Of a DNA stretch of 45,900 nt, positions 88 to 30,633 are shown in pieces. The DNA is from a virus: the IMG/VR virus record IMGVR_UViG_3300042868_007302, positions 1 to 45,900 of that record. One strand, given 5' to 3'. The position numbers and the translations under genes were made by a program. A model generated the notes under the pieces. That model saw nothing but the letters and a program-made list of their open reading frames with translations. It made no database searches and had not been told where the DNA came from. Position 1 is the stretch's first letter, and every line of letters starts with the position of its first letter.

Positions 88-1722
88 ATGGCTTGTGTTT
101 TACTTGGAACGTTTTCCTACTCATCAACTAGTCCTGAATTACTTTGTGACGAAATTAAAACTATATCAATTTATGGTGATGATTTAAACTTGGGATCCTT
201 AATCTATTCAGATTCCTTATGTACAGTGTTGGTAAATAATGGATTTTATTCTGACGGGATTAATACATATACAGTTGGTGAAACAAGTGACAGGGGAACC
301 ATAGAAACCATAGAACCTTGTGCCGAATGTAATACAGAATACTGTATCTCAGGTACAGACACGTATGACGATAACTATACGTTTAATGGATCTTATAACG
401 GTTTCCCATATTATACAGGACAAAGTGGGAGTTATGTGATTTACTATTCGACAGGCGAGACTTGTTGGTGCGTTTCTTCCGTATTAGACGGTCCCTGTGA
501 ACTTTTTGGTAAATCACCTTGTCTTAGTAATTGTCCTGACTTATGTGAAACATTTTTTACTGAAGGATATTGTGTGGTAAGTACAACAACAACATATAAT
601 AGTTGTGACATAATTGATTTTGAGGCATTATTTAATTGTGATGTTACTCCAACTCCAACTGTTACTCCAACATCAACACCAACACCAACCCCTACAGTAA
701 CTCCAACACCATCTAATGTGTGTAATAGTTTAAATTTTGTCGCAACAGGTATAACATATACCCCAACACCCACACCAACACCTAGCGACACACCAAGTCC
801 AACTCCAACGCCAACAATAGATTGTTTGGTTTCAGGTTTAGTTACATTTAATATTATTGATGATTACATAAGATGTTCAAATAGTAAGAAATTTAGAGAT
901 TGTTTTACAGGAACTGAATATTTTAGTGCCGATCTAATTCTTATAAATGGTGAAATCCCTATACAAGGTTATGTTTATAAAACAATAATTAATGATGAAT
1001 CTATTTGTGCGACTTTCTTAGGTTTAGTGGATAACATAAGTGGTGTTGATAAAATAGAATTAGTGTCAGAACTTGGTCCTGAAAATGAAGGTAAGTGTTT
1101 GGATTGTATTCCGATCCCTTCAAATACCCCAACACCTACACCAACATCAACCCCAACACCTACACCAACAACTCCTGCTGGTTGTGTTGATTGTTCATTA
1201 ATAACCAACTTACCTCAAGTTGGTAATTCAATTACGGTTAATGGTATAACAATTACAGGTAACGGAACAGGTGCAATAGAAGAAGGGATATTTGGTGGTT
1301 TCTTAGGTTGGTGCCTTACAGGTCCTTTGGTCCAAGACGGGTTTTTATATTTAGGTAATGGTGTTTTACCTGTGGATTATCCATTCTCATATACTTTAAC
1401 ATTTAGTCAACCCGTAAATAACATAAGTTTAAGAATAAATAATTATGATTATTTAAGTCCAACAAACTATGAAACCTTTACGTTTACAACAAATTCATCT
1501 AACCCATCTATTTCAAGTTGTATTTATTGTTGTGCTAAAATTAATGGTAATATTATAGAGGCATCTCCTTGTCCTCAAACATCCCCTCAAGGTAATGTTG
1601 GTTCAGGTATATTCACATTTACAACTTTGGCACCGTACACAACTCTTACAATAACAGGTAATGGAGCGGCAAATTGTGCAGGTACTGTTTTTGATTTATG
1701 TGATTCTTCACTTTTAGGATAA
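88..1722 (+). CDS. Fibre/adhesin-like virion protein with three Thr-Pro linkers
   Basis: A 544-residue Cys-rich protein, and the only complete + strand gene. Three low-complexity Thr-Pro linkers (about residues 187-209, 224-242 and 344-365) separate four compact regions. The N-terminal region contains a GFYSDG motif and ends in a CAEC-type cysteine cluster. The second folded region carries a FRDCFTGTEYF-like stretch. The C-terminal region is rich in beta-strand-like Thr/Asn sequence. This architecture, folded units joined by PT linkers, matches the - strand proteins at 2424-5129, 6164-7219 and 12068-15196. I infer a tail fibre or decoration protein exposed on the virion. No catalytic motif or signal peptide was recognised. 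It starts one base after the preceding stop, and a hairpin follows its own stop. No named domain is certain. Confidence 0.75.
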   Translation: MACVLLGTFSYSSTSPELLCDEIKTISIYGDDLNLGSLIYSDSLCTVLVNNGFYSDGINTYTVGETSDRGTIETIEPCAECNTEYCISGTDTYDDNYTFNGSYNGFPYYTGQSGSYVIYYSTGETCWCVSSVLDGPCELFGKSPCLSNCPDLCETFFTEGYCVVSTTTTYNSCDIIDFEALFNCDVTPTPTVTPTSTPTPTPTVTPTPSNVCNSLNFVATGITYTPTPTPTPSDTPSPTPTPTIDCLVSGLVTFNIIDDYIRCSNSKKFRDCFTGTEYFSADLILINGEIPIQGYVYKTIINDESICATFLGLVDNISGVDKIELVSELGPENEGKCLDCIPIPSNTPTPTPTSTPTPTPTTPAGCVDCSLITNLPQVGNSITVNGITITGNGTGAIEEGIFGGFLGWCLTGPLVQDGFLYLGNGVLPVDYPFSYTLTFSQPVNNISLRINNYDYLSPTNYETFTFTTNSSNPSISSCIYCCAKINGNIIEASPCPQTSPQGNVGSGIFTFTTLAPYTTLTITGNGAANCAGTVFDLCDSSLLG

Positions 1723-1752
1723 AAAAAAATACCATCTAAAAAGATGATATTT
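1721..1752 (-). terminator. Terminator between convergent genes
   Basis: Arms 1727-1737 and 1742-1752 pair over 11 positions with one mismatch around a four-base A loop. On the - strand the stem is followed by a run of nine U (complement of the A run 1721-1729), which suits termination of the resolvase transcript. In the + direction the downstream T-tract is weaker, so it may act partly in both directions. Confidence 0.7.
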
Positions 1753-1777
1753 AAAATTATTGGTATTTTAATAGATA

Positions 1778-2377: not shown

Positions 2378-2401
2378 AAAGTGTTTTTATTATAAAATAA
2401 A

Positions 2402-2427
2402 TTAAACTTTAAAAAATTAAAGTTTAA
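2402..2427 (-). terminator. A+T-rich hairpin at the end of the 901-residue protein gene
   Basis: An 11-bp perfect inverted repeat (arms 2402-2412 and 2417-2427, loop of four A) overlaps the TAA stop at 2424-2426. On the - strand it is followed by a T-rich but interrupted tract. The stem is almost all A:T, so it may be only a weak terminator. Confidence 0.35.
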
Positions 2428-5129
2428 AAATCTATTTTAACTAAGTACTGTTGGATTCCCTGTCTTAAAACAGGTGATTGTAATTTAGACATAACTAATA
2501 TATCTTTATCTTCATCTAACAATGCAATTTCGGTTATATAAGATTTTGTCCCTTGTTTCCAAGTTGGGTTTGTTGTATTTTGGAACTCGGTAAAATTTAA
2601 ATTAATTTTATATTTCATCTCATATATTGTTGCCATAATATCAGACTCAAAAGACCCATAAAAATAGTATTCATCACCAAAATTTAAATCAGGTACATCA
2701 TTACCAATTTTTGTTAAATTAATGTAATTACCTAAATCATAATATGGTGCTTTATCATATTGATCTTTAGTTATAACAAATGTATTATTTGTTAATGTGT
2801 CTTGGGTTACTATACCCCCTAAATCACTCGTATAATCAATTACTCTCCAATTTGATGGGTCAGGTCTTTGACCTGTTACCACTTTTTGACAAATTATTTG
2901 GAAGTATTCCGCAAAATAACCTTTTGTGATGTCACAAGTTTGTGGACATATTGTTGTTGTGGTGGTGATTGGGTAATAAGTAGTAGTTGTACTTGTGATT
3001 GGATAATAAGTGGTACTTGTAGTTGTGATTGGATAATAAGTTGTAGTTGTTGTTGTTATTGGATTTTCCCCCAAACAATTAAACTCTCTTCCAAATCTTA
3101 CCGCCACGTTTTGTGAAACATTAGGACTACAATCATTATTATTACCAACTAATTTAACATAGTAATTACAATGTAGTGAATTAGTACTACATGTTTTATT
3201 TGTAAATCTATAAGTTACATACATAGTTTCTCCATTACCTGTAAGAACCCCATCAGCATTTAAAGATGCTTGTCCACAAGTGTTTGGGGTTATTAACGAT
3301 AGTTGTGGTGCTGGTAATGTAAAGTTTCTATTTGACTTGTAAGACATTGAGGCAATTACCTCTTCATCATCAATAATAATTAATTTACTATCAGGGAATA
3401 CTTTACCAATTCTATTAGGTAGTCCATTTTTATTTTTATTGTTATCCCAAAGATGATAATATCTAATTCCAGGATTATTCATATCATCATTTTTAGTTGT
3501 TTGTACATATCTCACTTGGAATAGTCCCTTACCTTCAAATTCTGGAGGATCTACCCAAAACGTTTGTCCAAAACAACAATCGGGATTTTTATGCCACATT
3601 AACCATGGTATATGTAGTCTAAAATTTCTTGCTTGACCTGTAGTATCATCAAGATTTGACGGATCATAAGGTTCTAACGCAAATTTTTCACCATAGAAGA
3701 AATCTATAGTTTGATTAGTGTAGTGTATAATTGCAATCGCTTTTTGTTCTTCAGGTTCAACATCAACAACTTCACCTAAAGAGTTATAATAGAATGTATC
3801 TGTTGTCTCAGCACTTAAAGTGTTATTAATAAAAAATGTCTGACCTGAATTTGAATTGTACCCAAAGTATTCTTTAGACCCGATATAATCTACAGATCCA
3901 AAATATTCATACCCTTCATATTTTGTTGGTACTAAACCAGCAGGATTTTCAGTCCATGGAATGTTCATATTCCAAATTTTTACATCAAACTGATCGGTAT
4001 CACATATTGATTCAAAATCAATAACTTGTTCACCCCAATGTGGGTTTGGTGTTAGACTATCATATATAGATGTCATGTTTGGTGGATAAATTAAAGTTCT
4101 CGCATAACAATGACTAATAACGGTACCGCAAAAATCAGGTGTATTTCTATCTAATGTTATTATATCTTCACAAACATCAACAATTCTATATGTTAATATC
4201 TGATAACAAGAGTTCATAGAGACCACACAATTAGGTGGTGGTGGTGCCGGACACAATCTACTAGGTGTAGGCGTCAAACATGGTGTTTTAGTTGGCGTAG
4301 GTGTAGGTGTTGGCGACTCACAAGGATTATAATTTTTAGTAACACTTGGTGTCGGTGTCGGTGTTGGTGTTTGAGATGATGTCGGTGTAGGTGTTAATGC
4401 CGGAACTTCTTGACAATCTCCCCATACCAAGAAATCTCCATCTTCTGTTGTTAAAAATTCAGATAATTCTGTCATTAATATACATGTCTCTGAAATTGGC
4501 ATTTGAGATGATGTGGGTGTTGGTGTGAGTGTTGGGGTTACGCTTGGGGTTGGTGTTGGTAAATTAATACAACTACAGTCATACTCTCCAAAACCATCAT
4601 AATAAATTGTTATAATATCGCCTATAGATGGTTTATTTAAATTCGTATAGTTACATCCAGAATATATTATTTGTACTTTATTTGACCCACTTAATGTGGA
4701 CATATCTATAACATAATTAGAACTAACAACATACTGATCATTAGTTAATGCACTCCAAACTATTGTGTCGGCGGTGGTATTACCCGTAAAAAAACCTCTT
4801 AATGGGGCTCTATTATAAACAGGTTCAACAACAGAGTCCATATATGGTATACCATATGTTGATCCACTAGATCCATCAACATAATAAGGATATTTAATAC
4901 TTTGTCTATTTGATTCAGGTACTCCCGCAGAGTTTTGTGTATTGAACGCAGGTTCTAACACAAATAAATTATTGTAATTATAATTTGATGGTAATTTATC
5001 GTACGACACTTCACTATCCCCTACTTGGAAATACGCAATCTTAAAACTACCCTGTGATAATTTTTTTCTACCTGTGTCAGTAACTCTAGTGTTAACTAAC
5101 CCTGATGTATTTTTAATTATATATGCCAT
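2424..5129 (-). CDS. Large tail/fibre protein with PT linkers and Thr-Tyr repeats
   Basis: A 901-residue protein. The N-terminal 50 residues (MAYIIKNTSG, then TDTGRKKLSQG and a YFQVGDSEVSY stretch) look like a compact virion-attachment domain. Pro-Thr linkers follow at about residues 190-211, 244-268 and 271-298, the last rich in Cys and ending in a PPPP run. A large middle region has no recognised domain. A 10-residue Thr/Tyr/Pro/Ile unit repeats three times at about residues 692-721, and a C-terminal domain of about 170 residues follows. The overall design is of a modular tail fibre or adhesin. It is preceded by a TATTTATA box six bases before the ATG and ends in a hairpin. No enzyme motif seen. 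The role is inferred from context and composition. Confidence 0.75.
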   Translation of the reverse strand: MAYIIKNTSGLVNTRVTDTGRKKLSQGSFKIAYFQVGDSEVSYDKLPSNYNYNNLFVLEPAFNTQNSAGVPESNRQSIKYPYYVDGSSGSTYGIPYMDSVVEPVYNRAPLRGFFTGNTTADTIVWSALTNDQYVVSSNYVIDMSTLSGSNKVQIIYSGCNYTNLNKPSIGDIITIYYDGFGEYDCSCINLPTPTPSVTPTLTPTPTSSQMPISETCILMTELSEFLTTEDGDFLVWGDCQEVPALTPTPTSSQTPTPTPTPSVTKNYNPCESPTPTPTPTKTPCLTPTPSRLCPAPPPPNCVVSMNSCYQILTYRIVDVCEDIITLDRNTPDFCGTVISHCYARTLIYPPNMTSIYDSLTPNPHWGEQVIDFESICDTDQFDVKIWNMNIPWTENPAGLVPTKYEGYEYFGSVDYIGSKEYFGYNSNSGQTFFINNTLSAETTDTFYYNSLGEVVDVEPEEQKAIAIIHYTNQTIDFFYGEKFALEPYDPSNLDDTTGQARNFRLHIPWLMWHKNPDCCFGQTFWVDPPEFEGKGLFQVRYVQTTKNDDMNNPGIRYYHLWDNNKNKNGLPNRIGKVFPDSKLIIIDDEEVIASMSYKSNRNFTLPAPQLSLITPNTCGQASLNADGVLTGNGETMYVTYRFTNKTCSTNSLHCNYYVKLVGNNNDCSPNVSQNVAVRFGREFNCLGENPITTTTTTYYPITTTSTTYYPITSTTTTYYPITTTTTICPQTCDITKGYFAEYFQIICQKVVTGQRPDPSNWRVIDYTSDLGGIVTQDTLTNNTFVITKDQYDKAPYYDLGNYINLTKIGNDVPDLNFGDEYYFYGSFESDIMATIYEMKYKINLNFTEFQNTTNPTWKQGTKSYITEIALLDEDKDILVMSKLQSPVLRQGIQQYLVKIDF
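2967..3056 (-). repeat. Three tandem 30-bp repeats inside the 901-residue protein gene
   Basis: Units at 2967-2996, 2997-3026 and 3027-3056 are near-identical and encode a Thr-rich 10-residue repeat with a YYPIT core. Because the unit is a multiple of three, copy-number change would keep the reading frame. Confidence 0.85.
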
Positions 5130-5157: not shown

Positions 5158-6162
5158 TTATTTGTTAAAAACTACCTTCGTAACATTACAACAATTGCAA
5201 TTAATTACTTGTAAATTTTTTAAAGTTAATGTCAAATCTTGACTACCATTATAACATAAAGTTTTAACGTCAATATTTGGACTAATACTACTCATAATAT
5301 ATCCTATTAACGTGTCCCCACTTTCAATGGTTAAATTTTGCCATTCTTTTATTTTAATTATTCTATAATTACTACCAATACATGGTCTTTGTAAGTTAGT
5401 AACTTGGGTGTTTTCACTAAAATTTGTGTATTCACTTATATCTCTATTATTAATATAGACTTGTTCGGTATAATTTTGTATAACAGAATTTACTTCTGGT
5501 CCATAATTTAAAACATTTTGATAAACAAGATCAAATTTTAATTTTATATTATTTGTTAATTCAGGATTACAAACAACACTAAATTCTCCATTAGTTTTAT
5601 TATAATTTAATGTAACAAAATATTGTGTAGATTTATTTTTTGGTATTATAACTTCCTTAATTGTTTCCGATTCTTTACTATCAACAACTTTAACAACATA
5701 TTTACCTTCACATAGATTTTCAATTATGTTTCCAAGTTGTTTTTTATCATTTAAAAAATATTTAAAAGGTCCTATCCCACTAAAAGTATCAATGATTAAA
5801 GATCCGTCACATTTACAAGAACTGTTTTTTATGTTAACACTATAATCAACTATCACATTATTAACGCAATCTCCTGTTGTAATTCTAATATTTTTTATTT
5901 GTTTAGGTGGTCTTGATCCCAAAATCTGCCACCCAGATAATGGAACATCATTTGTGGTATATGTGAAAATAAAGGTATTTTCAACCCCACTTAATACCCA
6001 TTGGTTTGTATCTCCCGTATACCAAAATATGGTATATCCATTAGAATTAACCCAACTATTTTTTCCATTAACTTCATTTGATGGTTCAAAAGCGTAAGTC
6101 TCAACTTTTCTAACGTTATTCTCCAATACTTCAGATAAAAGACATAATTCCATACTATTCAT
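5158..6162 (-). CDS. Tail-associated protein with an SprB-like repeat
   Basis: A 334-residue protein. The middle part (about residues 95-175) has the SprB-type outline: a NSSCKCDGSLIIDTFSGIGPF segment, then a GKYVVKVVDSK strand. The first 90 residues include a YTIFWYTGDTNQWVLSG stretch that resembles a small beta domain. The C-terminus is rich in Asn and ends with a CNCC cysteine cluster. Its ATG is one base from the stop of the upstream gene (6164-7219), so the two are probably translated together. Likely a minor tail adhesin or fibre-accessory protein; this rests on neighbours and the repeat, not on a specific family match. Confidence 0.65.
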   Translation of the reverse strand: MNSMELCLLSEVLENNVRKVETYAFEPSNEVNGKNSWVNSNGYTIFWYTGDTNQWVLSGVENTFIFTYTTNDVPLSGWQILGSRPPKQIKNIRITTGDCVNNVIVDYSVNIKNSSCKCDGSLIIDTFSGIGPFKYFLNDKKQLGNIIENLCEGKYVVKVVDSKESETIKEVIIPKNKSTQYFVTLNYNKTNGEFSVVCNPELTNNIKLKFDLVYQNVLNYGPEVNSVIQNYTEQVYINNRDISEYTNFSENTQVTNLQRPCIGSNYRIIKIKEWQNLTIESGDTLIGYIMSSISPNIDVKTLCYNGSQDLTLTLKNLQVINCNCCNVTKVVFNK

Positions 6163-6163
6163 A

Positions 6164-7219
6164 TTATACGCAATGACCTAAAGTAGATTCGTTTATTCCG
6201 TATATTACAGATGGATTATTAATCCAATTTTCGGTGATAGTACTATTCGGATAATCAGAAGAATTACTCAAATATGAATAATAAGACCCTGAAGGTCCTG
6301 CCGTTGGGTTAAATATTTGCCAAAACTCCCATCTATTATCAACATCATCCCAAAATACGTATCCAATTAATGATGGTGGTGAGGTTAAAGGATTATATAC
6401 CCCATAATAAAACTTATTATTATACGTTCCTGCAACATAAGCATTACTTGTAATTATTATAGGTGTTGTCCCATTTTTAACCACAGTAAAACACATATCT
6501 GTTGGCGGATAACTACATAAACCATATGATGTTAACATATATGTAACTCTTTCACTAACCCAATCAACTGTGTTATCAACAGGGAAACTATTTGTTGATG
6601 GTAAATACGCAAGTAGTAACCCTCCACCTAAAACTAAAGTCATTTCCCATCTATTTAACGTTGAGTTCCACCAAACGTAAGCATTTCCTCCAACACCAAC
6701 TAAAGTATAATAGTACTTACCATTATAAAGTCCTGTTGATGGTATTGTTGTATATATTGGGCCCAAAAATTCATATTCAGTTGTAAAACAAATGATTGGT
6801 TCTGGAGTTGCCGATGGTGTTAGACTAGGTATCGGTGTTGCCGTTGGTGTTAAAGTAGGTGTAGGCGTAATGGTAGGTGTCGGTGTAGGTGTTGGTGTTC
6901 CTGTTGGTGTGGGCGTTGGTAATGCCGTAGCACTTAAAATACATGTTGTATTAACAATAAAATCACCATAAGAATCTGTTATTGTAACAGGGTATTCTCC
7001 AACCCCTAAATTTGTAATTGCGGGAGCCACATTTCCATTTTCCCAAGAAATTGTATATGGTGGTGTTCCTCCCGTAACTCCAACCGCAATAGATCCATTA
7101 AAAGTTGTAACATTTGTTGGTTCTTTACTGAAGCATTTGGCCCCCATAGGAAATATTGTGAGAACGTCACATTCATTTCTTGGTTCAATACTTGGTTTTG
7201 GTCTATCAGGTGATGCCAC
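6164..7219 (-). CDS. SprB-repeat / PT-linker tail protein with two copies of an unnamed domain
   Basis: A 351-residue protein with a GTG start (an ATG start would lose 24 residues). One SprB-type repeat (about residues 38-95; GGTPPYTISW then GEYPVTITDSYG) is followed by a long Thr-Pro linker (about 100-141). Two copies of a domain of about 100 residues follow, at 142-236 and 241-351. Each copy opens with CFT and carries an N-(G/N)-K-(Y/F)-YY motif, an aromatic V-x-W strand and an invariant NRWE. A third copy is in the protein at 12068-15196. The modular build suggests a receptor-binding or decoration tail protein. I do not recognise the repeated domain. A palindromic TATTTATAAATA lies just upstream. 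Confidence 0.7.
   Translation of the reverse strand: MASPDRPKPSIEPRNECDVLTIFPMGAKCFSKEPTNVTTFNGSIAVGVTGGTPPYTISWENGNVAPAITNLGVGEYPVTITDSYGDFIVNTTCILSATALPTPTPTGTPTPTPTPTITPTPTLTPTATPIPSLTPSATPEPIICFTTEYEFLGPIYTTIPSTGLYNGKYYYTLVGVGGNAYVWWNSTLNRWEMTLVLGGGLLLAYLPSTNSFPVDNTVDWVSERVTYMLTSYGLCSYPPTDMCFTVVKNGTTPIIITSNAYVAGTYNNKFYYGVYNPLTSPPSLIGYVFWDDVDNRWEFWQIFNPTAGPSGSYYSYLSNSSDYPNSTITENWINNPSVIYGINESTLGHCV
6167..6796 (-). repeat. Two tandem copies of the CFT...NRWE domain
   Basis: Protein-level repeat: copy 1 is encoded at about 6512-6796 and copy 2 at about 6167-6499. Shared positions are the opening CFT, the N-(G/N)-K-(Y/F)-YY motif, a V-x-W strand, NRWE, a P-x-(S/D)-(N/S) turn, a Trp and a closing Cys. 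The copies have diverged strongly at DNA level, so the duplication is old. Confidence 0.7.
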
Positions 7220-7243: not shown

Positions 7244-8221
7244 TTATTTGTCGTTTTCAATGAAAGATTTCATAACTTCTATATATTTGATCGTTGAATT
7301 ATTAACTTCAACATAATCAAAATGATTAGGGTTATTCCTTAATTTTTCAATTGGGTCTACATTTATATACTCGCCCTTGTAAAACTTAATTCTTTTAAGA
7401 TTGTCAGTTACTCCGGCCATGTGTAGTATTGGTTTTTTTTCGTACACTTGTATTGGGTCTGTTGCCCAAGAAAAATCCAACTCTTTTGTTATTTTTGTTT
7501 CATTACCATTTAACCAAAGATTCCAAAGTAATGACCACATTTCTGCAGTCCAAAATTGGATCTCTCCTGGATTTATTGGGAATCTTTTTTGATAATCTAA
7601 CATTTGGTTATACAAAGGAGTACAATCGTCATATATTTTTTTCCACAGATTATGATCTGTATTTTTGATTAGGTATTGACCCCCACCCGAATTTTCTTGA
7701 TTACATTTAACACAATCAACACTAACTCCAATAACATCAACCATTTCTTGTAATAATTGGCTTTTTTCAGATGTTGGGTGGTTTTTTTCATATCTATTAC
7801 AACAATCCATAATATAATTGTAACCTATATAACCAATTGTGTCTGAAAGATATGTCATATCATCATCCAATAATAGATTAAAATTAGGTAAATAATTAAA
7901 TATAATATCGGCATCGTGTAGAAAAAATAACTCACCAAATTCAGGATATTCCTCTAACCATTTAGAGATTAGGTAAGGTTTAACGCTTGGTATATAAGTT
8001 TTTACGTCTCTATTATCTTCATAAAAATGAATGTTTATTCCAAAATCTTTTAATTTTAAGGCATCTTCAGTCGGGGTTTTAGCTCCGTGTACCATGGCAA
8101 AAATTACGTGAATTTGGTTTGGGTCAATTCCTTTTTCTATAAAATTGTGAACATAAAGTTTAATTTGCCAATGAAAATATGGAACATCGGGTTGTGCGGT
8201 TACAAATACAATATCTTTCAT
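7244..8221 (-). CDS. GT-A-type glycosyltransferase
   Basis: A 325-residue protein. It starts with a Rossmann-like strand (DIVFVTAQPD). A DxD-type motif, His102-Asp103-Ala104-Asp105, sits at the end of a hydrophobic strand (ELFFLHDADIIF), the expected nucleotide-sugar and metal site of GT-A enzymes. A SGGGQYLIK loop (178-186), an acceptor-side Trp-rich segment (about 223-237) and a late ILHMAG histidine (267) fit the same fold. No signal peptide or membrane segment is visible, so it probably acts in the host cytoplasm. Its place among Thr-rich tail protein genes suggests that it glycosylates virion proteins; DNA or host surface sugars are alternatives. Fold confidence is good; sugar and acceptor are unknown. 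Confidence 0.75.
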   Translation of the reverse strand: MKDIVFVTAQPDVPYFHWQIKLYVHNFIEKGIDPNQIHVIFAMVHGAKTPTEDALKLKDFGINIHFYEDNRDVKTYIPSVKPYLISKWLEEYPEFGELFFLHDADIIFNYLPNFNLLLDDDMTYLSDTIGYIGYNYIMDCCNRYEKNHPTSEKSQLLQEMVDVIGVSVDCVKCNQENSGGGQYLIKNTDHNLWKKIYDDCTPLYNQMLDYQKRFPINPGEIQFWTAEMWSLLWNLWLNGNETKITKELDFSWATDPIQVYEKKPILHMAGVTDNLKRIKFYKGEYINVDPIEKLRNNPNHFDYVEVNNSTIKYIEVMKSFIENDK

Positions 8222-8256
8222 ATTGAAAATATATTCGTAAAAGTAAAAAAGTGAAT

Positions 8257-9492
8257 TTAATAAATTTTGTTTAACGTGAATATCTCTGAATATATTGAGT
8301 TTCCTGCGTTATTAGTATTCCATTCAGCAGTGACAAGAAGTGTATTAGATATTGTAGTATCAAAAGTTGTGTTGTTTACAATACTGAAATTTACTCCTTC
8401 AAAGTTAAGTCCTCCATTTTTAGTGTATGAAAACAATCCCCCTGATGCTATAGAAGCAACTGTTGATAATCCTACTTGTCTTATAGTAAAATTAACGTCT
8501 AGTTTCCAATGTTTATTAGTGGTGGCATTCATTGCCATTACCCCTGTTTCTGCTAACAATATACCTGAAACAGTTTTAATTCTAATATGTAAAGTGGCAG
8601 AACCCACACAAGATAGATGTCCTATTAACACTCCATGAAAGCTATCACCCACACTAAACCCATTTGCAGGAATTATAATAGATCCTACTCCCCCACTTAT
8701 TAATGTAGTCTCAACAGTTGTTGCACTTACTGCAACGCTGGTTCCTGTTTGACTAAATAACCCATAAACTGTTGGTCCAGGTATTGTTTTAACTTTAATC
8801 TCACCTGTTGATCCATCTCTTGTTAAATAATTTGCGGTTGTTCCTGTATCTGTTGTTGGTGTTGATGATATATTTAATGTGGATGCGGTTGTTGATTGTA
8901 AGGAAGTATTTCCTGTTACATTTAAATCACCATTAACAGTCCATCCAGTCACACTATTTATTGTTGCATCGTGCGTGCTACCATCTGTTTCGTATATTGT
9001 AAAAGTATTTGAATTGTATGTATAGGCGGTTACTTTAACATCAGTATAACCCGTTGTAAACCCCGACACATCAAAAGTTCCTCCAGTATTATTTGTAAAA
9101 ACAACAACCCCTGTAGTTGGATTATAAGTTCCTCCTGTTATTGTAACTTCCGACGCTAATATTGATAAATCATCAGTAAATGAAACACCATCATTACGGA
9201 AAATTGTTAAGTCATAGTTAGAATTATTAAATGTCATTCCTGTAACATAGATGTCTTGTGGTAAATTATAATAAGTTGTTGCCGAAACCGAAGGAACAAC
9301 CAAAGGACCCGTCATAGTGTCTCCACTTTGATTAACAAACAAACTTGAGAAGATATTCCCCACTTGACCAACTGTCGCTTTATAAGAAGACCCCGCTGGG
9401 TTTCCTTGTGATATGTCACTTGGTATAACAATATGAATTAAATCATTTAATGTTACTCCTGTTGATAAAGATCTGTCTGTTAAAAATGCCAT
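8257..9492 (-). CDS. Tail fibre protein
   Basis: A 411-residue protein. The motif NQSGDTMTGPL (residues 54-64) is the classic short repeat of phage tail fibres and marks a trimeric shaft. A Thr/Asn/Gly-rich shaft follows, including the DLNVTGNTSLQS segment. A link NYLTRDGSTGEIKVKTIPG (about 225-244) then leads to a C-terminal domain of about 165 residues made of alternating beta strands, similar in style to jelly-roll receptor-binding heads. The N-terminal region is probably the attachment end. A TATTTATT box lies 13 bases upstream of the ATG. No chaperone gene is obvious next to it. The fibre assignment is firm; which fibre it is remains open. Confidence 0.8.
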   Translation of the reverse strand: MAFLTDRSLSTGVTLNDLIHIVIPSDISQGNPAGSSYKATVGQVGNIFSSLFVNQSGDTMTGPLVVPSVSATTYYNLPQDIYVTGMTFNNSNYDLTIFRNDGVSFTDDLSILASEVTITGGTYNPTTGVVVFTNNTGGTFDVSGFTTGYTDVKVTAYTYNSNTFTIYETDGSTHDATINSVTGWTVNGDLNVTGNTSLQSTTASTLNISSTPTTDTGTTANYLTRDGSTGEIKVKTIPGPTVYGLFSQTGTSVAVSATTVETTLISGGVGSIIIPANGFSVGDSFHGVLIGHLSCVGSATLHIRIKTVSGILLAETGVMAMNATTNKHWKLDVNFTIRQVGLSTVASIASGGLFSYTKNGGLNFEGVNFSIVNNTTFDTTISNTLLVTAEWNTNNAGNSIYSEIFTLNKIY

Positions 9493-9505
9493 TTAAGTTT
9501 TTTTT

Positions 9506-9513
9506 AATAAATA
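9506..9513 (-). promoter_or_regulatory. TATTTATT box upstream of the tail fibre gene
   Basis: The - strand reads TATTTATT 13 bases before the ATG at 9492. It belongs to the recurring set of such boxes; function inferred. Confidence 0.3.
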
Positions 9514-9515
9514 TT

Positions 9516-9824
9516 TTAAGTTTGGAAATCATATTCCTCATTATCCATAAAATAAAAGTCGTCTCCGTCTTGGAATTGTTTTATTGTAAGGTATTGTTGT
9601 GTACAATCAACTATTTTAAATATTTCACAACCTAACGAGTCAATTAGTTTTATACCAACCGCAGGTGCGGTATTAAATTGTGATGGTATCGTTATTACTA
9701 TTGTTGGTGGTTGTGGTGGTAACACATTTGCAACCAAAACACATTGATTACCATACACATCACAAACAAACACATTATATGATGTAAAAATAAAACTTGT
9801 AGTTTGTATCTGTATCTGTGCCAT
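9516..9824 (-). CDS. Small tail-associated protein, paralogue of the next protein's N-terminus
   Basis: A 102-residue protein. Residues 5-75 align by eye with residues 5-71 of the 736-residue protein encoded immediately upstream. Both have an N-terminal beta stretch, a V(F/Y)VC motif, an Asn/Gln-Cys pair, a PPTIVITIP / PTTITIP strand, then GIKLIDSLGCE / GVKIIDEANCE. It therefore looks like a single-domain duplicate of the domain that begins the larger protein. The C-terminal 25 residues are acidic and aromatic. Its ATG overlaps the upstream stop by one base (TAATG), so translation is probably coupled. It may be an adaptor or plug that occupies the same binding site as the larger protein; this is inference. 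Confidence 0.7.
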   Translation of the reverse strand: MAQIQIQTTSFIFTSYNVFVCDVYGNQCVLVANVLPPQPPTIVITIPSQFNTAPAVGIKLIDSLGCEIFKIVDCTQQYLTIKQFQDGDDFYFMDNEEYDFQT

Positions 9825-12034
9825 TATATAAAGTAACTTGGGTCTATTACGTTAGGGACTCCTCCAATGTTTTCATAAATTTTAAAAAACGGAGGTGTTA
9901 TGGTTGGGTTATTTGCAATATCAAATGTCCATATTTCAAAATCACCACTTAGACTTACAATCCTAAAATCATAATAATAAACCCCCCTTGAGAAATTACC
10001 GTAGTTACGAGTAGGGTTAGGATTATTATAGTTCCAAGATGATAAATCACATGTTTGAGCACTTAAACTTGGTATTAATGTTAATGGAGATCCTGAGTAT
10101 GGTATTGTTGTGTTTACGTATTCAGGTATAATAAATTCAGCATATTTTGTGGCTCCTGTTTTAACAAATGTATTATCCTGTAATGTATAATATGAATTAA
10201 ATGGATATTCTAATTTAGATCCTGTGTTTGAGATTATGGATATGTTATTTGTTATTCCTGTTGATGCCTGATTAATAGTATCAACAATAGTCATTGTATT
10301 ACCAGTACACCCAATATCACAACTACCCCATGTTAATGCGTTTGATATTGTTGGCATAGTAACCGTCATAGTCCAAGGACCTGTACCACCTGTAGTGACA
10401 ACCGAAGATGGGTGTATAATGTAAGTTTGATAACCTGTTAAATCACCACATTGTTGTGCCCCACTAGCCAAAGGTATTGTTAATACAAACCATCTATAAT
10501 AGTCAATATCCAACGGATTTAAGGGGTTTCCGGCATAATTAGTATAAAAGAAATCCCAATTAGTATAATAATCATCTAAATCTGAATACGTGTCAAAGGT
10601 CATTGTAATTAACCCTTCCCCAAAAATAACTGATTTATTATATGTAATTGTAGAAATAGAGGGGGTATCACATATTTTACTATAAGGGAGGAACCCACCT
10701 ATTCCGCATTCTGTTACTGGGTTATAGTATATTGCTTGTACTTTAGCGAGATTGTAATCTATTTCATTTGTTGGGTCATATATAAAACCGTTTATGCTAC
10801 CATTATAATTTATCTCACCTATAGAATTATATGGTCCACCCGGATTTAAATATCTATAAATATTACTATCAGAACATGCCGATAATTTAAAAGGATATTT
10901 ATAACCATCACACCCTACAGATGTTTTATTAATTGTAGATTCTATTATTTTATAAGGTATTGTATAATTAGTATCGTAACATAACTCACAATCAAACGTT
11001 TCTAAACATTCACATAGTAATTCCCATTTAGTATTATTATTAATTGGGTTTGGTGTTACTTCTATTTCCAGATAATCCCCAACATTAACTGTTAAAGCCG
11101 TTAAACATAATACTTTTGGGAAAGTCACATTTTGAGTTCCCGACCTTACATTTTTAGGATTTAAACTTAAACTAAAATTTGTGAAAGGAACATTTTGTCC
11201 CATACTTATGTATTCTAAAACTATAGGATCTGAATAATTACCACCAAAAAATGTTATTTTTAGATCATCGTATATTTGCTCTCCTTTAAAAGAATACGCA
11301 AAATAAGGTTTTAACGGATCTAAAACAAAAGTTGTTGTAACTGGTTGTGGGGTTATGCTTGTTGTTGCGGTAAAACTAATTCCATGACTATAATATGGGC
11401 TTGTTGAACCTGGTCCATTATCACAAGTTAGGGCATCAACGTCAACAGTGGAAGAATTAAAACAATTAAGATCAGTATATTCGGTCCCATTTATTTTAAT
11501 TTTTTGTATTATTGGGGTATAAACCCCCGCCACCACAGGAACCGCCGAAGAACCTGTTAATGGATGAACATAAAGATAATCACCCGTATAATCGGTTCCG
11601 TAACCTGAAGTGAAAGCAACTGTCGTACTACCAATTCCAGGCCCATACCAATCTATAACATAGTCAGTCACACTAGGATCACAACTTGCGGTTATTAAAC
11701 CTACCGAAATTTCGGCAATTGGGTTTGTGTCATAAAAATCAAATCCGATATCACAACTAACACATAATGGATTAATGGTTGTTGTTGATGTTGTCGATGT
11801 TGATGTTGTGGTAGTTCCTTGGAACGTTTGACAATATTCACAATTTGCCTCGTCTATAATTTTAACACCAAATGAGGAATAACCACTGTATGGTCCTGGA
11901 ATTGTTATTGTTGTGGGTACAGAATTAATTGTATCAACTAAAGTACAATTAATATCAGGACAATCTATACAAACATATACATCAACAGGATATGTGACTG
12001 AGTTTATATTTGTTATGTTAACTTGTAATGCCAT
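9824..12034 (-). CDS. Large tail/adhesin protein with N-terminal attachment-like domain
   Basis: A 736-residue protein. Residues 1-73 form the domain shared with the 102-residue downstream protein. A pure Thr/Ser linker follows (74-86). The remainder is a long, Cys-containing, beta-rich chain with repeated Tyr/Asn/Gly segments and no domain I can name. Two CELCYD/CECL-type cysteine clusters occur near the middle. The likely role is a fibre or receptor-binding protein, with the N-terminal domain anchoring it to the tail. The leader upstream of its ATG is purely A/T with a short tandem repeat and lacks a Shine-Dalgarno sequence. It overlaps the start of the 102-residue gene by one base. Confidence 0.7.
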   Translation of the reverse strand: MALQVNITNINSVTYPVDVYVCIDCPDINCTLVDTINSVPTTITIPGPYSGYSSFGVKIIDEANCEYCQTFQGTTTTSTSTTSTTTINPLCVSCDIGFDFYDTNPIAEISVGLITASCDPSVTDYVIDWYGPGIGSTTVAFTSGYGTDYTGDYLYVHPLTGSSAVPVVAGVYTPIIQKIKINGTEYTDLNCFNSSTVDVDALTCDNGPGSTSPYYSHGISFTATTSITPQPVTTTFVLDPLKPYFAYSFKGEQIYDDLKITFFGGNYSDPIVLEYISMGQNVPFTNFSLSLNPKNVRSGTQNVTFPKVLCLTALTVNVGDYLEIEVTPNPINNNTKWELLCECLETFDCELCYDTNYTIPYKIIESTINKTSVGCDGYKYPFKLSACSDSNIYRYLNPGGPYNSIGEINYNGSINGFIYDPTNEIDYNLAKVQAIYYNPVTECGIGGFLPYSKICDTPSISTITYNKSVIFGEGLITMTFDTYSDLDDYYTNWDFFYTNYAGNPLNPLDIDYYRWFVLTIPLASGAQQCGDLTGYQTYIIHPSSVVTTGGTGPWTMTVTMPTISNALTWGSCDIGCTGNTMTIVDTINQASTGITNNISIISNTGSKLEYPFNSYYTLQDNTFVKTGATKYAEFIIPEYVNTTIPYSGSPLTLIPSLSAQTCDLSSWNYNNPNPTRNYGNFSRGVYYYDFRIVSLSGDFEIWTFDIANNPTITPPFFKIYENIGGVPNVIDPSYFI

Positions 12035-12067
12035 ATTTCATATATATTATTTTTTATTTTTTATTTT

Positions 12068-15000
12068 TTAAGGACAAATTCCAAGGTTTACTGCCGACAC
12101 AAAATTAGGTGATGAACTTGTCGGTGTTATTGTTGAACAATCAGTGAACGTTCCTCCACTTAAAAATGTAGTTTCATTTGATGAACCACAACTATATGTG
12201 GTGTATGAACCTCCGCCACTAAACGTAATTTCCCACAGATAACTTATACATGACCCAGATGAACCTACTACTGAACCCATACCACTTAGTAAAATAGGTG
12301 TGGTTAATGAACAAGTGGATCCCGTTCCAACAAAAACTGTTATAGTATCTGATGAAAAAGAATCACAACTTGTATACTCAAAAATTGCTAAATCTGCAGT
12401 CGCTTCTAAAATATAACATGTACAACCAGTATCCGGTATAGTTGGTGTGGGGGTTGGTGTTGGTGTTACCGTTGGTGTTGGAGTTGGATTTAAACAGTTA
12501 CCCAAGATTGAGTCTTCTATTACACATCCAAATGCAATCATAAGATCAGTAACCCATGGATACGTTACATTACTTTCTGGAAAATATGATGGATTATCAT
12601 TATGTTGTAAAATTATTGTTGGTGACGAAAGGTTAATATGTTCCCATCTGTTTGTTATATTATTCCAATATACAACACTGTTACAACTTGTTGTACAGTC
12701 TGATAGATAAATTATATAGAATGGTTTACCGTTTATTATACCGGCAGGATTTAAACTACAATCCCAAGAAGGTAATACCAGTAAGTTAGTATTTACGGTA
12801 AAACACATAATTGTCGCAGGAGTTGCGGTTGGGGTTAGTGTTGGTGTGGGTGTAACGGTTGGTGTGGGTGTTACAGTCGGTGTAGGGGTGATGGTAGGAG
12901 TTGGTCCAACTAATGACATATTAGCATTAAATGTTTCACAATTATTATTTAAAACCATTGTCGCGTTAAACCCTAAACATTCGGGGGCCTTACCACAATC
13001 TTTACAAGAAATTAAATATTCAATTAGTAAATTGATTTTAACGTTTGTATCCCCTAAATCATTAAAATTTGTTAACTGACAATCCTTAATTTTCTCATTA
13101 CAGTTATTTGTGATTGTTATCTTATTTTTTCCAAGATCAATTATAACATCACCAATTTCAGGATATTCTTGTATTGTGTCTTTAAGACTTTGTATCCATA
13201 TTGTGTCCGCATATTGAGCAAAACTACCACCTGTATATGTATAAAATAAATCTTCTTTTATAACCCCATCGATTTCTACTTGAGTTCTGAATGTCGCATT
13301 TACAATATAACAACCAATATCACCTGAAGTTAAATCAAAAAACCCTTCATTCATCATTTGTAAGATTCCTCTCTTACCATATATTCCGGTATTAACAAAA
13401 TCATCAGAACACACTGTATATGAAGCATAACTAGTTGTTAATTCAGTACCGTTTAATATTATTATATCACTTTTTAAACAACCTTCACTATCTGTTACTA
13501 ATACAGAGTAATTTCCATTTGATAACCCCGTTAAATGTAGTCCTGTTTGAGCCCCAACATTTGAACTCCAAACAATTGTGAAAGGTGGTACTCCACTTGT
13601 TATATTTAAATAAATTTCACCGTCATTACCGATAGTTGGTTGTACCCCAACTAAAGTAAAATCAACAGGTTGGGAATCTGCAATATAGAAATTTTCAGTT
13701 TGTGTACAGGTAGGTGATCCCGAATCTGTTACTGTTGCAACATAAAACCCAGAACTTAAATTGTTAAATACATTTGTTAATTGGGTTGTTGTTGTAACGG
13801 GTGTTCCTCCTGATAAATTATATGATAACGGTAATGTTCCTCCTGAAGTAGCGGTTATTATTGCGGTACCATTATTTAAACCACATGTTGTATCTGAATA
13901 ACTTACTGATATTTCATATTTATTTACATTTACAACAGTAAAATGTCCAGTATATATACATCCCGAATTATTAGGGACATCTTGTATTAATATTGTGTAA
14001 CTTCCACTTTCTAAACCAACAAAATCACAAATTGAATTTGTGGTAATTACGGTAGAATTTCCGTTGAAGTCATATAAAGTGTATTGGTAGTTTCCAGGAG
14101 ATAGTCCATTATTTAATTCTATGTGAACAGACCCATCACTTGAATTACAATTAGAGTTTGTTACTGACATTGTCGTAACAATAAAACCATTTGGTGTTAA
14201 TAACGAAACGGAACTTATCACATTACAAAGTCCTGCATCTGTTACTGACACTGTAAATACTCCCGAAGATAAACCTGTAAAAGTATAGATATTACTATAC
14301 TGTATTATTATTTCACCGTTTGATCCTGAAAAATAATAAGGTGCGGTTCCTCCTGAAACAATAACCACAACCTCTCCGTCATTTGAAAAACAAGAGGGTT
14401 GTATTGTTGTCAACATTGCCGCCACCCCCAAATCAGGAACCTCAGATAGTACTACACTTTTAGTTAGTGTACATCCTTCAAAGTCGGTTATTGTAAGTGT
14501 GTAGGTCCCCAAAGTTAGTCCTGTAACTTCAGGACCTGTTTGCGTTCCAACGTTAGGACTCCAACTATACGTATAAGGCGGATTTCCTGTTAAACCTGTT
14601 ACAAATATTTTTCCTGTACCATCAATAGGTACACAACTTGCATCATTTACAACATATAGACCAAAGTCCAAAGGACTTGTTTCTTTAATTAAACAAACTT
14701 CACTTCTTCCTGTACATCCCCCACCATCATCACCGATCACATAATATAGTCCTGGTGAAAGATTTGTAAAAACATTACTTGTACTGTCACCACTTGTTAT
14801 ATACCCTAAAGTGTTTTCGTATAAATAAAACGAACCAACACCATAATAATTTGTTGTTGATGCAGTAATCGTACCATTATTTAATCCACAAGTAGTCCCA
14901 CTACTTTCTATAGACACACAAGTTCCTGAAGATACTGTAAATTCAACATATCTAGGAATAAAAGGTGGTTCTAAACAACTATCTATAATCTCTAAAATAT

Positions 15001-15196
15001 AAGTATCAGGAGTTAGACCTGTAACAAAATAAGTTGTTGTATTTGATGATAGCGGTAATAAACCTGATGTTGATATCTCACTTACAGTGTAGTTTGGGGA
15101 TCCTCCTGTAATAGAAAAGGAAACCCCTCCAAATCCTGAGTTTGTGCAGTCTCCACTTACACTATAATTATATATATTTATTGACCCACAACTCAT
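12068..15196 (-). CDS. Seven-repeat SprB-like adhesin protein with PT linkers
   Basis: A 1042-residue protein. Residues 1 to about 600 hold seven consecutive SprB-type repeats of about 70-85 residues. Each has the outline: C-x-x-x-x-G, a strand, GG-x-x-P-Y, a turn, then G-x-Y-x-(V/L)-x-(V/I)-x-D-x-x-x-C. A Cys-containing region follows (about 605-764), then a Thr-Pro linker (765-792), one copy of the CFT...NRWE domain (about 796-901), a second PT linker (903-920) and a C-terminal Ser/Thr/Gly-rich domain. SprB repeats are known from the type IX-secreted gliding adhesin of Flavobacterium. Here they probably form the stalk of a long fibre. The ATG overlaps the upstream stop by four bases. No signal peptide, as expected for a virion protein. 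Confidence 0.8.
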   Translation of the reverse strand: MSCGSINIYNYSVSGDCTNSGFGGVSFSITGGSPNYTVSEISTSGLLPLSSNTTTYFVTGLTPDTYILEIIDSCLEPPFIPRYVEFTVSSGTCVSIESSGTTCGLNNGTITASTTNYYGVGSFYLYENTLGYITSGDSTSNVFTNLSPGLYYVIGDDGGGCTGRSEVCLIKETSPLDFGLYVVNDASCVPIDGTGKIFVTGLTGNPPYTYSWSPNVGTQTGPEVTGLTLGTYTLTITDFEGCTLTKSVVLSEVPDLGVAAMLTTIQPSCFSNDGEVVVIVSGGTAPYYFSGSNGEIIIQYSNIYTFTGLSSGVFTVSVTDAGLCNVISSVSLLTPNGFIVTTMSVTNSNCNSSDGSVHIELNNGLSPGNYQYTLYDFNGNSTVITTNSICDFVGLESGSYTILIQDVPNNSGCIYTGHFTVVNVNKYEISVSYSDTTCGLNNGTAIITATSGGTLPLSYNLSGGTPVTTTTQLTNVFNNLSSGFYVATVTDSGSPTCTQTENFYIADSQPVDFTLVGVQPTIGNDGEIYLNITSGVPPFTIVWSSNVGAQTGLHLTGLSNGNYSVLVTDSEGCLKSDIIILNGTELTTSYASYTVCSDDFVNTGIYGKRGILQMMNEGFFDLTSGDIGCYIVNATFRTQVEIDGVIKEDLFYTYTGGSFAQYADTIWIQSLKDTIQEYPEIGDVIIDLGKNKITITNNCNEKIKDCQLTNFNDLGDTNVKINLLIEYLISCKDCGKAPECLGFNATMVLNNNCETFNANMSLVGPTPTITPTPTVTPTPTVTPTPTLTPTATPATIMCFTVNTNLLVLPSWDCSLNPAGIINGKPFYIIYLSDCTTSCNSVVYWNNITNRWEHINLSSPTIILQHNDNPSYFPESNVTYPWVTDLMIAFGCVIEDSILGNCLNPTPTPTVTPTPTPTPTIPDTGCTCYILEATADLAIFEYTSCDSFSSDTITVFVGTGSTCSLTTPILLSGMGSVVGSSGSCISYLWEITFSGGGSYTTYSCGSSNETTFLSGGTFTDCSTITPTSSSPNFVSAVNLGICP
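12493..12811 (-). repeat. Third copy of the CFT...NRWE domain
   Basis: Residues of about 796-901 repeat the domain found twice in the protein at 6164-7219: MCFTV opening, INGKPFY, VVYWNN, TNRWEH, a P-E-S turn, a Trp and a closing CV/LGNC. It is flanked on both sides by Thr-Pro linkers, as expected for a movable module. Confidence 0.7.
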
Positions 15197-19103: not shown

Positions 19104-19123
19104 GTAATTTTACTTTGTTATTT

Positions 19124-19131
19124 TATAAATA
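19124..19131 (-). promoter_or_regulatory. TATTTATA box upstream of the 302-residue tail gene
   Basis: The - strand reads TATTTATA 20 bases before the ATG at 19103, leaving room for a short leader. One of the recurring boxes; promoter role inferred. Confidence 0.4.
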
Positions 19132-19138
19132 TTAATAA

Positions 19139-28267: not shown

Positions 28268-28333
28268 CTTGATAAATAGTTTATTTCCTATTTTAAAAGG
28301 ATAACCCTTTTATAAAAAAAGGAAATTATCAAG
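28268..28333 (-). other. Layered inverted repeat between gp6 and the 1826-residue gene
   Basis: Three nested pairings fill the gap: an outer 8-bp perfect repeat (28268-28275 with 28326-28333), a middle 6-bp pair (28284-28289 with 28320-28325) and an inner 6-bp hairpin (28295-28300 with 28306-28311). The outer arm overlaps the TGA stop of gp6. It could terminate part of the transcripts or protect mRNA ends. Confidence 0.45.
28271..28278 (-). promoter_or_regulatory. TATTTATC box upstream of the 1826-residue gene
   Basis: The - strand reads TATTTATC 14 bases before the ATG at 28256, inside the layered inverted repeat. Part of the recurring set; function inferred. Confidence 0.3.
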
Positions 28334-30170
28334 AATATGTTACTGAAGATAAATTAACAACACTTACTCTAATATCTTTGTTTCCAAATCTAACTTGGTA
28401 TATTTGTGTTGGGTCGGCAAAAATAGTGTCAGATATCAACTGAATTTCTTTTGTTGATTGATTAGAATATGGTTGTGATGTTTGTGATGAAGAATACTGC
28501 CCCCCAACTTTGTTAAAGACCTGTATATCCGATATTGACAATACTCCGTTTTCCGCTTGTATTAGTCTTCTTAATTCAGAAATATTAACATTTTGACCTA
28601 ATTGTCTTGACGTTGGTGACATATATGTAGATACAATATCTATGATTTTTGCAATTATAGATCCCTGGCTTTGTGAAGAATCTAAAACCACCGCAATATC
28701 AAACCCTAAGTCAATAACATTAGCACTTTCTACAGATATGTAATCATTTATCATTCTATAGTTTGATAAATAATTTGCAATATTAGTTTTTAATGCGTTT
28801 GGAACTACTGATGTAAGTGTTCCACTTGAGTCATAAGAAAGTAATTTTATTTTTATTTTGTTATTTTCCTCTACTATCGATACTTTAGATGGTGCCCCAA
28901 ATTGTGAAGGCATATTTCTTAATAATGAATCATAGTCATTAACCGTTACCGCTCTATTTTGTGATGAGAAATTGAAAGAAACAAAATTTCTAATCTCCTC
29001 TAATGTTGGTGCCGCCGCTCCACCAACCGCAGCAATCGGGTTTGTACAACTTAATGAGTTTGACGTACTTGTATTAAGACTCTCAGAAGGACCGTTAACA
29101 AAGAAATTACTTTTCTGTACTTGAGTAATAACCCCAACACCGACATTACTTGATATTCCCCCACCAATTCTATACTGAATAAACAATGTTGAGTTTGATT
29201 TAAGTGTACTTCCTAAACCTAAATTATTAACGTATTTGTTTATGTTAATTGATTGTCCATTCCTTGCAAATTCCCTTAATTGTTCTTCCGCAGAATTATT
29301 ACCACCACCAAAAGTTAATTTCATAAAACCTTGTGGGGTATATTCTGTAATAAATTTATCACTTGTTGTAATGTATCTACCGATTTTAATGCCAGGAGCA
29401 TCCGAAGGTTTTGTTGGATCTTCAACAAAAACTCTGTCTTCAACTAAGGCCCTTACTTCATAAAATCTGTTATTAGGGGATAAAAAATCTTGATCTGAAG
29501 GTACGTTACTATATTGTGATCCGTCTTTTACAATGACACTAGTTACTCCCAACACATTTCTTTCAGGTAAAAATAACTCAAAAAATGGTTTAACATCGTT
29601 AGGTGTTATAACTCTTTTAAAAACTTTAGTTAAACCATTAAGAACTACTTCTCTTTTGGTTACTGTGTAATTTTGTATTGTACCATTTGAATCTATATTT
29701 GGCCTTACTATTCTTGAATTTGGTTGTCCTTCTCCATTATATTGAGATGAAAAATCTATATCATACACAGTTTCATATGATTGTCCTGCACCATTTACTT
29801 GAGTACCTCTTCTTAATATACCACAATATCTTATATCTTCCTTATCTCCAAACGCAGGTACAACAATAGAAAAATCAACTAATGATATTGATGGTCTTTG
29901 TCCAGGTATTTTTAAACCGTATGTTCTTGCAATGTTAAATAATGAAGTCTTTTGTTGTGCGTATTGTAATACAGTCTCTTGTATACTTCTATCAATTTGA
30001 AAATTAAGGTTGTCGGCAACTGCGGCATTTAAATCCATTAAAACGGAAAATACCGAAGCATCATTAAAATTTTGTATTAATTCAGGATAATAAGTTTTTA
30101 CGTAATTAACTAATTCTGTTCTAACTCCTTGAAAATCCCTTGTTGTATATGATATTTTTTTATCTGCCAT
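28329..30170 (-). CDS. 6: Baseplate wedge protein gp6 (baseplate J-like)
   Basis: A 613-residue protein, near the length of T4 gp6 (660). It starts with the typical helical opening (TTRDFQGVRTELVNYVKTYY, then an LMDLNAAVADNLNFQIDRS helix). The C-terminal half has the baseplate-J type segments (AVTVNDYDSLLRNMPSQFGA, then a segment ending in VESANVIDLGFDIAVVL). gp6 dimers form the continuous inner ring of the T4 baseplate and hold the wedges together with gp25 and gp53. It follows gp25 by four bases, an order that supports the call, and is followed by the 1826-residue gene. Well supported. Confidence 0.9.
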   Translation of the reverse strand: MADKKISYTTRDFQGVRTELVNYVKTYYPELIQNFNDASVFSVLMDLNAAVADNLNFQIDRSIQETVLQYAQQKTSLFNIARTYGLKIPGQRPSISLVDFSIVVPAFGDKEDIRYCGILRRGTQVNGAGQSYETVYDIDFSSQYNGEGQPNSRIVRPNIDSNGTIQNYTVTKREVVLNGLTKVFKRVITPNDVKPFFELFLPERNVLGVTSVIVKDGSQYSNVPSDQDFLSPNNRFYEVRALVEDRVFVEDPTKPSDAPGIKIGRYITTSDKFITEYTPQGFMKLTFGGGNNSAEEQLREFARNGQSININKYVNNLGLGSTLKSNSTLFIQYRIGGGISSNVGVGVITQVQKSNFFVNGPSESLNTSTSNSLSCTNPIAAVGGAAAPTLEEIRNFVSFNFSSQNRAVTVNDYDSLLRNMPSQFGAPSKVSIVEENNKIKIKLLSYDSSGTLTSVVPNALKTNIANYLSNYRMINDYISVESANVIDLGFDIAVVLDSSQSQGSIIAKIIDIVSTYMSPTSRQLGQNVNISELRRLIQAENGVLSISDIQVFNKVGGQYSSSQTSQPYSNQSTKEIQLISDTIFADPTQIYQVRFGNKDIRVSVVNLSSVTYS

Positions 30171-30174: not shown

Positions 30175-30633
30175 TTAAATATTTAAAATAATGAAATCAC
30201 TACTGTTAAATGCGTCGGAAGTTATTTTATAATCAATCCTAACTCTTGCAGTATGTTCTTTTTGTGAAATGTTTGGTACGGTAAACTCTCTTTGATCCTC
30301 ACCGTTTATAAAAGTACCTTTGTCTTCATACTCTGTTGAGGCGTCTGTAATTAACACATTAGTAATTAAAACCCCAGGCATGAATTCCTCAACGGAATCT
30401 CTAATTTCAGCCTCTATTTCGGCAAATGTTGGTCCGTCTAATGGTTCAAAAATATATTCATATAATCTTGATCCAAAATCAGGTAAATAATATCTACTTC
30501 CTTTTCTTGTTAATAATAAATGTATAAGATTAGTTCTAACTTCTTCAGAAGCGTAATCTGTTAAATCTAAATATTTACCGTTAAAGGAATCCCTAAAAGG
30601 GAAAGTAATCCCGTAAGTTATACCATTTGCCAT
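30175..30633 (-). CDS. 25: Baseplate wedge protein gp25
   Basis: A 152-residue protein of the GPW/gp25 family (T4 gp25 has 132 residues). The family core is clear: NLIHLLLTRKGSRYYLPDFG (35-54), then SRLYEYIFEPLD, then a helix with EIEAEIRDSVEEFMPG. In T4-type baseplates gp25 joins gp6 and gp53 at the centre of each wedge and starts sheath assembly. It was once thought to be a lysozyme, but it is a structural protein. Four bases separate its stop from the gp6 ATG, so the two are co-translated. A terminator lies between it and the DUF5522-like gene, so it probably begins a new transcription unit; a TATTTATT box lies four bases before the ATG. Confidence 0.92.
   Translation of the reverse strand: MANGITYGITFPFRDSFNGKYLDLTDYASEEVRTNLIHLLLTRKGSRYYLPDFGSRLYEYIFEPLDGPTFAEIEAEIRDSVEEFMPGVLITNVLITDASTEYEDKGTFINGEDQREFTVPNISQKEHTARVRIDYKITSDAFNSSDFIILNI

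Follow-up and report, generated by a model that had tools for sequence, protein, structure and literature searches.

A Cys-bounded exchangeable domain in tail-region proteins of uncultured phages

In phage receptor-binding and tail proteins, mosaic domains have been described in which one and the same domain occurs at variable places on otherwise unrelated tail proteins, with recent gain and loss (PMC10684548). A second relevant system is the Ig-like modular adhesins of phages, small all-beta modules of surface proteins proposed to hold surfaces (PMC13370021). Adhesins of this type have been proposed to stick to the environment rather than to a host receptor. The domain described here, found in proteins of large phages, is carried by otherwise unrelated proteins and is gained and lost between orthologues, and its family would be an instance of the known class of mosaic tail modules. 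Compared with those mosaic domains, it lies outside the Pfam and PHROG libraries searched, and its binding role is putative. It resembles the Ig-like adhesins in being a small, by prediction all-beta module of probable surface proteins, but it has no Ig-type sequence or fold match, is bounded by Cys residues, and carries an NG turn and two conserved Trp residues. Our leading reading, to which we give about an even chance, is that large phages use the domain as a replaceable outer part of several baseplate or fibre proteins, most likely as an accessory adhesion head.

Domain copies and their gene setting

The window, meaning the whole stretch of 45,900 bases of a viral record that was analysed (31.9% G+C), contains five copies of the domain in four proteins (Table 1). 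A sequence-only reading had reported three copies in two proteins, at 6167-6796 and 12493-12811; re-translation places copies A, B and C there on the minus strand, and the divergent copies D and E add the remaining two proteins.

Table 1. Domain copies, their carrier proteins and the baseplate-like genes of the window
Feature	Position	Strand	Basis or remark
Copy A, main type, in ORF 6164-7219	6515..6790	(-)	shuffle alignments, leave-out profiles, AlphaFold2 model
Copy B, main type, in tandem with A, C-terminal in ORF 6164-7219	6170..6493	(-)	shuffle alignments, leave-out profiles
Copy C, main type, in ORF 12068-15196, Thr-Pro linker on each side	12494..12805	(-)	shuffle alignments, leave-out profiles
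Copy D, divergent D type, N-terminus of ORF 5158-6162	5866..6144	(-)	D-type profile, profile-profile comparison
Copy E, divergent E type, in ORF 88-1722	343..573	(+)	E-type profile, profile-profile comparison, model
Carrier of A and B: SprB/Ig-like stretch, Thr-Pro linker, then A, B	6164..7219	(-)	SprB E 1.4e-7
Carrier of D	5158..6162	(-)	fused to the protein before it in L126 and loci like it
Carrier of C: SprB repeats, exchangeable C-terminus	12068..15196	(-)	SprB E 7.7e-18, 5 stretches
Carrier of E	88..1722	(+)	homologue in L126, 44% over 258 residues
Baseplate-wedge-like gene	28329..30170	(-)	PHROG baseplate wedge subunit, E 1.3e-17
Baseplate-wedge-like gene	30175..30633	(-)	PHROG baseplate wedge subunit, E 1.3e-15

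The large ORFs lie on the minus strand from the baseplate genes down to 1778, and ORF 88-1722 is on the plus strand. The first genes of the minus-strand block are gp25- and gp6-like baseplate genes, and because these two baseplate-wedge-like genes stand at the head of the block that also holds the minus-strand carriers, we refer to it as the tail region. Other ORFs of the window match a DnaB-like helicase, a UvsX-like recombinase, an exonuclease, an ssDNA-binding protein and a ribonucleotide reductase, and no tRNA genes were found in the 45,900 bases. The contigs that hold related loci reach 290,887 bases. The SprB repeats in the carriers suggest a Bacteroidota host, and the large phages that carry the domain probably infect Bacteroidota. 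For a lineage of large aquatic phages, the published description gives mostly Bacteroidota as predicted hosts and includes gp25 and gp6 among the shared genes (PMC12619734).

The SprB repeat (PF13573) shares its proteins with the domain and occupies different residues, its matches falling outside the domain copies. In ORF 6164-7219 the SprB match covers residues 39-63, while A starts at about residue 144 and B at about residue 243. The carriers have no tail-family match of their own in PHROGs and are tentatively assigned to the tail by gene order after the gp25- and gp6-like genes. A single weak head-decoration match occurs among them, to Hoc-like proteins (E 0.0088), at residues 43-100 of ORF 6164-7219, over the SprB/Ig-like part. 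This match would suit a different outer decoration, with carriers on the head or tail surface that stick to particles or extracellular polymers and not to a host receptor, as would the epithelium-binding Ig-like adhesins of gut phages (PMC13370021). We consider such a role unlikely, given that the gene block opens with baseplate wedge genes and that in a related phage (L047) a copy is fused near the end of a homologue (33% over 858 aa) of ORF 15193-18195, a large protein of this baseplate-led block. The Hoc-like match nevertheless lowers our confidence in an adhesion head.

Homology, conserved positions and predicted fold

Copies A, B and C are homologous and thus true repeats. Their local alignment scores (AB 90, AC 90, BC 121) compare with shuffle means of 28-33, giving z values of 9.1, 12.0 and 15.8, and none of the 2,000 shuffles reaches the score in any pair. 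Leave-out profiles, from which each copy and its aligned orthologues were removed before the search, recover A at iE 1.3e-16, B at 1.1e-12 and C at 2.8e-15 among 419 ORFs; the E-values from our scripts refer throughout to small ORF sets (419 to 3,250). The alignment and profile check proposed by the earlier reading bears out homology of the three copies. Neither result that would have spoken against that reading appeared, since no named domain matched clearly and the sequences of A-C are related. Among the 15 rows of the leave-out test, 13 scored at 4e-8 or better, the others being the second copy of L034 (0.034) and D (0.54).

The relation of D and E to these repeats is more distant. A score of 2e-15 for D was obtained with D itself as an alignment row, and the main profile without that row gives only 0.54. 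Profiles of their own types reach 1.5e-33 on an L043 copy identical to D and 3.5e-35 on copy E, where the main profile gives only 0.012. These main-only values could mean that D and E are unrelated to A-C, being short aromatic beta hairpins that came to look alike through convergence. The D and E profiles also compare at just 37%, and of 48 E-type copies the main profile scores only three below 0.001 (L190, L165 and L160), with 13 below 0.01 and 25 below 0.05. We nevertheless judge convergence quite improbable. Profile-profile comparison gives 95.6% for main against D and 80% for main against E, whereas the main profile against reversed D and reversed E gives 0.2% each. The main profile, built without D or E rows, detects later-fetched D-type copies in L228 (3.2e-5) and L226 (1.4e-4), the E profile detects three D-type copies at 3e-5 to 1.6e-4, and the models of A and E agree in strand order.

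The three-copy profile also finds further copies in other viral contigs. Peptide-pattern searches, a DNA-pattern scan (50 stretches, a minority with a member) and iterated profiles had gathered 42 distinct main-type domains at that stage. The collection from viral contigs amounts to 107 distinct domains (44 main, 17 D and 46 E), a count that predates a later DNA-pattern scan with 28 stretches. Both DNA-pattern scans fix NGKP(Y/F)Y...W(N/D), which biases the set to this motif, and most of their stretches hold no member. E-type relatives are common, with 62 loci among 104 candidate stretches. In one profile check all 18 records had a match, these records having been chosen for matching.

The domain is about 77-110 residues long with a cysteine at each end. 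An alignment of 33 members (30 main, 3 D-type) shows no variation at C1, W48, W77 and C92 and hardly any at F2, N23, P70 and G90. The NRWE motif, earlier described as invariant, is common to A-C only; the family as a whole keeps the terminal Cys residues, two Trp and, almost always, one Pro. Its core constants, which comprise Trp, Pro and Cys residues and the NG turn, appear structural, and the terminal Cys pair would form a disulfide. The order of the motifs may resemble that of repeats in cellular surface proteins.

Domains that resemble the family but have no terminal Cys pair occur in L235 7577-11125 (-), L213 9307-11490 (+), L101 2745-3437 (+) and L127 10427-11620 (-), with main-profile iE values of 2.3e-5, 1.5e-5, 0.003 and 0.0055, respectively. 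Two of them lie in contig stretches of higher G+C content (L235, 58%; L213, 44%). These versions hint at a still wider superfamily; searches with the L101-type and L235-type domains gave no match in phage records or plasmids.

The domain family is undescribed and has no entry in the libraries searched, in agreement with the sequence-only reading, which had recognised no known family. Pfam, PHROGs and NCBIfam were run on 15 members (NCBIfam on these only), Pfam on a further set of 32 E-type members, and Pfam and PHROGs on the carriers. No named family at or near its curated cut-off was found for the domain in Pfam-A, PHROGs or NCBIfam. The best E-values of isolated domains were 0.023 in Pfam, 0.012 in PHROGs and 0.004 in NCBIfam, each for one or two members and with no family recurring. 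Weak Pfam matches (DUF6007, DUF3242 and others) did not recur across members or in profile searches, and the NCBIfam matches FhuF (E 0.004) and IbpA (E 0.009) involved one member each and did not recur. Sequence searches of the PDB with the domain gave no convincing match. Dextran dextrinase 9ju0 (E 0.0068) appeared with a hand-typed consensus only and was absent from the profile searches. We took as noise the E-type PDB profile matches, such as GH17 and HasA (E 0.14-0.85), and those of alignment A7 (33 members including three D-type rows; E 0.31-0.69).

Searches of other genomes were narrow. Two narrow peptide-pattern scans of genome contigs gave 11 and 45 candidate stretches, none of which was confirmed. 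In phage records, tblastn with ORF 6164-7219 found no match, the typed consensus gave nothing better than E 5 and 7, in two records, and ORF 12068-15196 found one record, LR756502.1, over residues 54-581, with copy C outside the matched part. A consensus search of plasmids found none. The literature, searched by titles and abstract openings, contained no description of the domain, and a motif search gave unrelated work only.

Structure prediction, which had been proposed for each of the three copies, was made for A and for the divergent E. The AlphaFold2 model of A, from alignment A7 with its three D-type rows among 33, has a pLDDT of 80.8, a pTM of 0.75, seven strands and no helix; its mean pLDDT is 66-68 in the first two and the second-last blocks and 53 in the last. 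The AlphaFold model of E (32 rows) has a pLDDT of 81.2, a pTM of 0.69, and four strands with isolated bridges. In both, a two-residue turn (NG in each) lies between the first two long strands and is followed by a strand with Tyr/Trp and then a strand with the conserved Trp. The two models were compared by strand lists, without superposition, and on this basis A and E share, at moderate model confidence, the strand order around the conserved turn. The domain is accordingly predicted to be a small antiparallel beta-sheet unit.

Comparison with solved structures in the PDB yielded nothing convincing; the best Foldseek E-values were 0.5 (A model) and 2.0 (E model). VIA-align gave a best Z of 3.7 for A, with no chain at Z of 5 or more, and for E none of 138 chains reached Z 2. 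The PDB profile, Foldseek and VIA-align searches matched the domain to neither a lectin nor any other binding domain. For E, Foldseek rows of olfactomedin, Kelch and Pizza (E 2-10) suggest at most a four-stranded antiparallel meander resembling one propeller blade. Among BFVD models of unnamed, uncharacterised phage proteins, A0A516MNE9, A0A6J5L4L9 and A0A6J5N1T5 have Foldseek probabilities of 0.98, 0.98 and 0.87 over 80-86 columns, but E-values of only 0.12, 0.25 and 0.84, and they may be further members of the family. The baseplate plug gp18 of cyanophage Pam3 (7yfz) shows a short WY-N...RW strand pair like that of the domain profile, although the profile match (E 0.1) extends over 34 positions only and Foldseek gives E 1.9 with a probability of 0.07.

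Gain, loss and transfer in related phages

That the domain is a swappable module of tail-region proteins, as the earlier reading proposed, is well supported by the homologues of ORF 12068-15196, in which it may occur once, twice or not at all, or be followed by a different C-terminus. In the L144 orthologue (75% identity over 765 residues, 79% across the final 120), the stretch of copy C is missing together with one linker. The L146 orthologue retains C, with 93 of 104 residues identical (89%), and continues into a different and longer C-terminus (1,224 versus 1,043 residues); that of L145 lacks C and also has a different end. Among more distant homologues, that of L026 (39% over 739 aa) has two copies and that of L224 (33% over 755 aa) a single one.

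The domain is also found on other tail-region proteins, and seven gene families of this region bear it in one phage or another. Besides the L047 fusion, a copy follows an N-terminus like ORF 9516-9824 in L116 and L139 (about 40% over about 80 aa), and an E-type region is joined to a homologue of ORF 9824-12034 in L152 (51% over 659 aa). The window versions of these proteins, ORFs 15193-18195, 9516-9824 and 9824-12034, contain no copy by the main, D or E profiles. In L126 a single protein unites the counterparts of ORFs 6164-7219 and 5158-6162 and carries one copy each of the main and D types.

Two carriers of related loci have a particular composition. The phage protein L034 3524-6181 (+) combines two domain copies with TSP1_spondin domains and a DUF5122 beta-propeller. 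The copy-bearing L028 3152-6172 (+) ends in an intein-splicing-like stretch (residues 979-1006; PF14890, E 3e-4, under the cut-off).

Each of the three copies first reported had been said to sit beside Thr-Pro linkers; among all five this holds for A (upstream) and C (both sides) but not for B, D or E. Seven residues separate B from A, and the protein ends with B. No linker adjoins D, and for E a Thr-rich stretch and a TP linker come only farther downstream. Across the collection, at least 40% Thr+Pro is found in the 30-residue upstream flank of 12/44 main, 0/17 D and 7/46 E domains, and in the downstream flank of 16/44, 0/17 and 28/46. Of 87 domain proteins, 52 have a T/P-rich stretch, compared with 84 among 409 other long ORFs, a background that includes chance frames.

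The linker-free tandem of A and B, the frequent mid-protein position and the core-like nature of the conserved residues would also fit a structural module, that is, a unit for folding, docking or capping that keeps fibre proteins joined and is reused for stability rather than for host binding. Its absence from an orthologue that is otherwise 75-79% identical means, however, that this protein does not need it, and its number and place vary among homologues, which makes a structural role rather unlikely in our estimate.

Proposed function

We prefer an adhesion head to a structural piece or another decoration because the domain is dispensable in one orthologue, is often C-terminal or adjacent to a linker, and is exchanged. 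The homology of the copies and types, the baseplate-led block, the gain, loss and transfer, the company of the domain in L034 and the all-beta models count for an adhesion head; the missing lectin or binding-domain match, the lack of a tail-family match for the carriers, the Hoc-like match, the structural look of the core constants and the many copies without a linker count against it. Receptor or glycan binding would be the likeliest function, with the domain displayed on the virion tail. Linkers or tandem copies may present it there, and its variable loops would touch host-surface glycans or proteins. By recombining at linkers and C-termini, phages could shift it between tail genes and alter what they can hold.

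In a broader and more tentative version, the main, D and E types may belong to a single undescribed superfamily that has a small beta fold of its own. It would serve as a standard clip-on head for host recognition, moved by large phages across at least seven tail-region gene families, with several different heads per virion. The domain profile allows part of the unannotated tail-region genes in large uncultured phages to be named. The domain also marks the most exchangeable segments of the tail region, which are first candidates for host-range determinants in phages known from metagenomes only.

Among the other genes of the window, the fibre-like ORF 8257-9492 (-) is about 90% identical over its last 228 residues to the fibre-like L146 4454-6409, which has repeated shaft-like segments, and differs before them. 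The contig L143 (G003 8000-26000) matches the window at 94-100% identity across the four ORFs from 7244-8221 through 2424-5129, but different genes stand in place of the remaining fibre block, reflecting a rearrangement or an assembly join. ORF 2424-5129 (-) contains four near-identical ITTTTTTYYP-type units in a row, a Thr-rich linker unlike the Thr-Pro ones. The protein of ORF 7244-8221 (-), between the variable fibre-like ORF and the carrier of A and B, gave no convincing match in Pfam and is 78-99% identical across the four relatives compared. Its DAD-type acidic motif may point to a glycosyltransferase, and the protein could be a modifier of the Thr-rich linkers.
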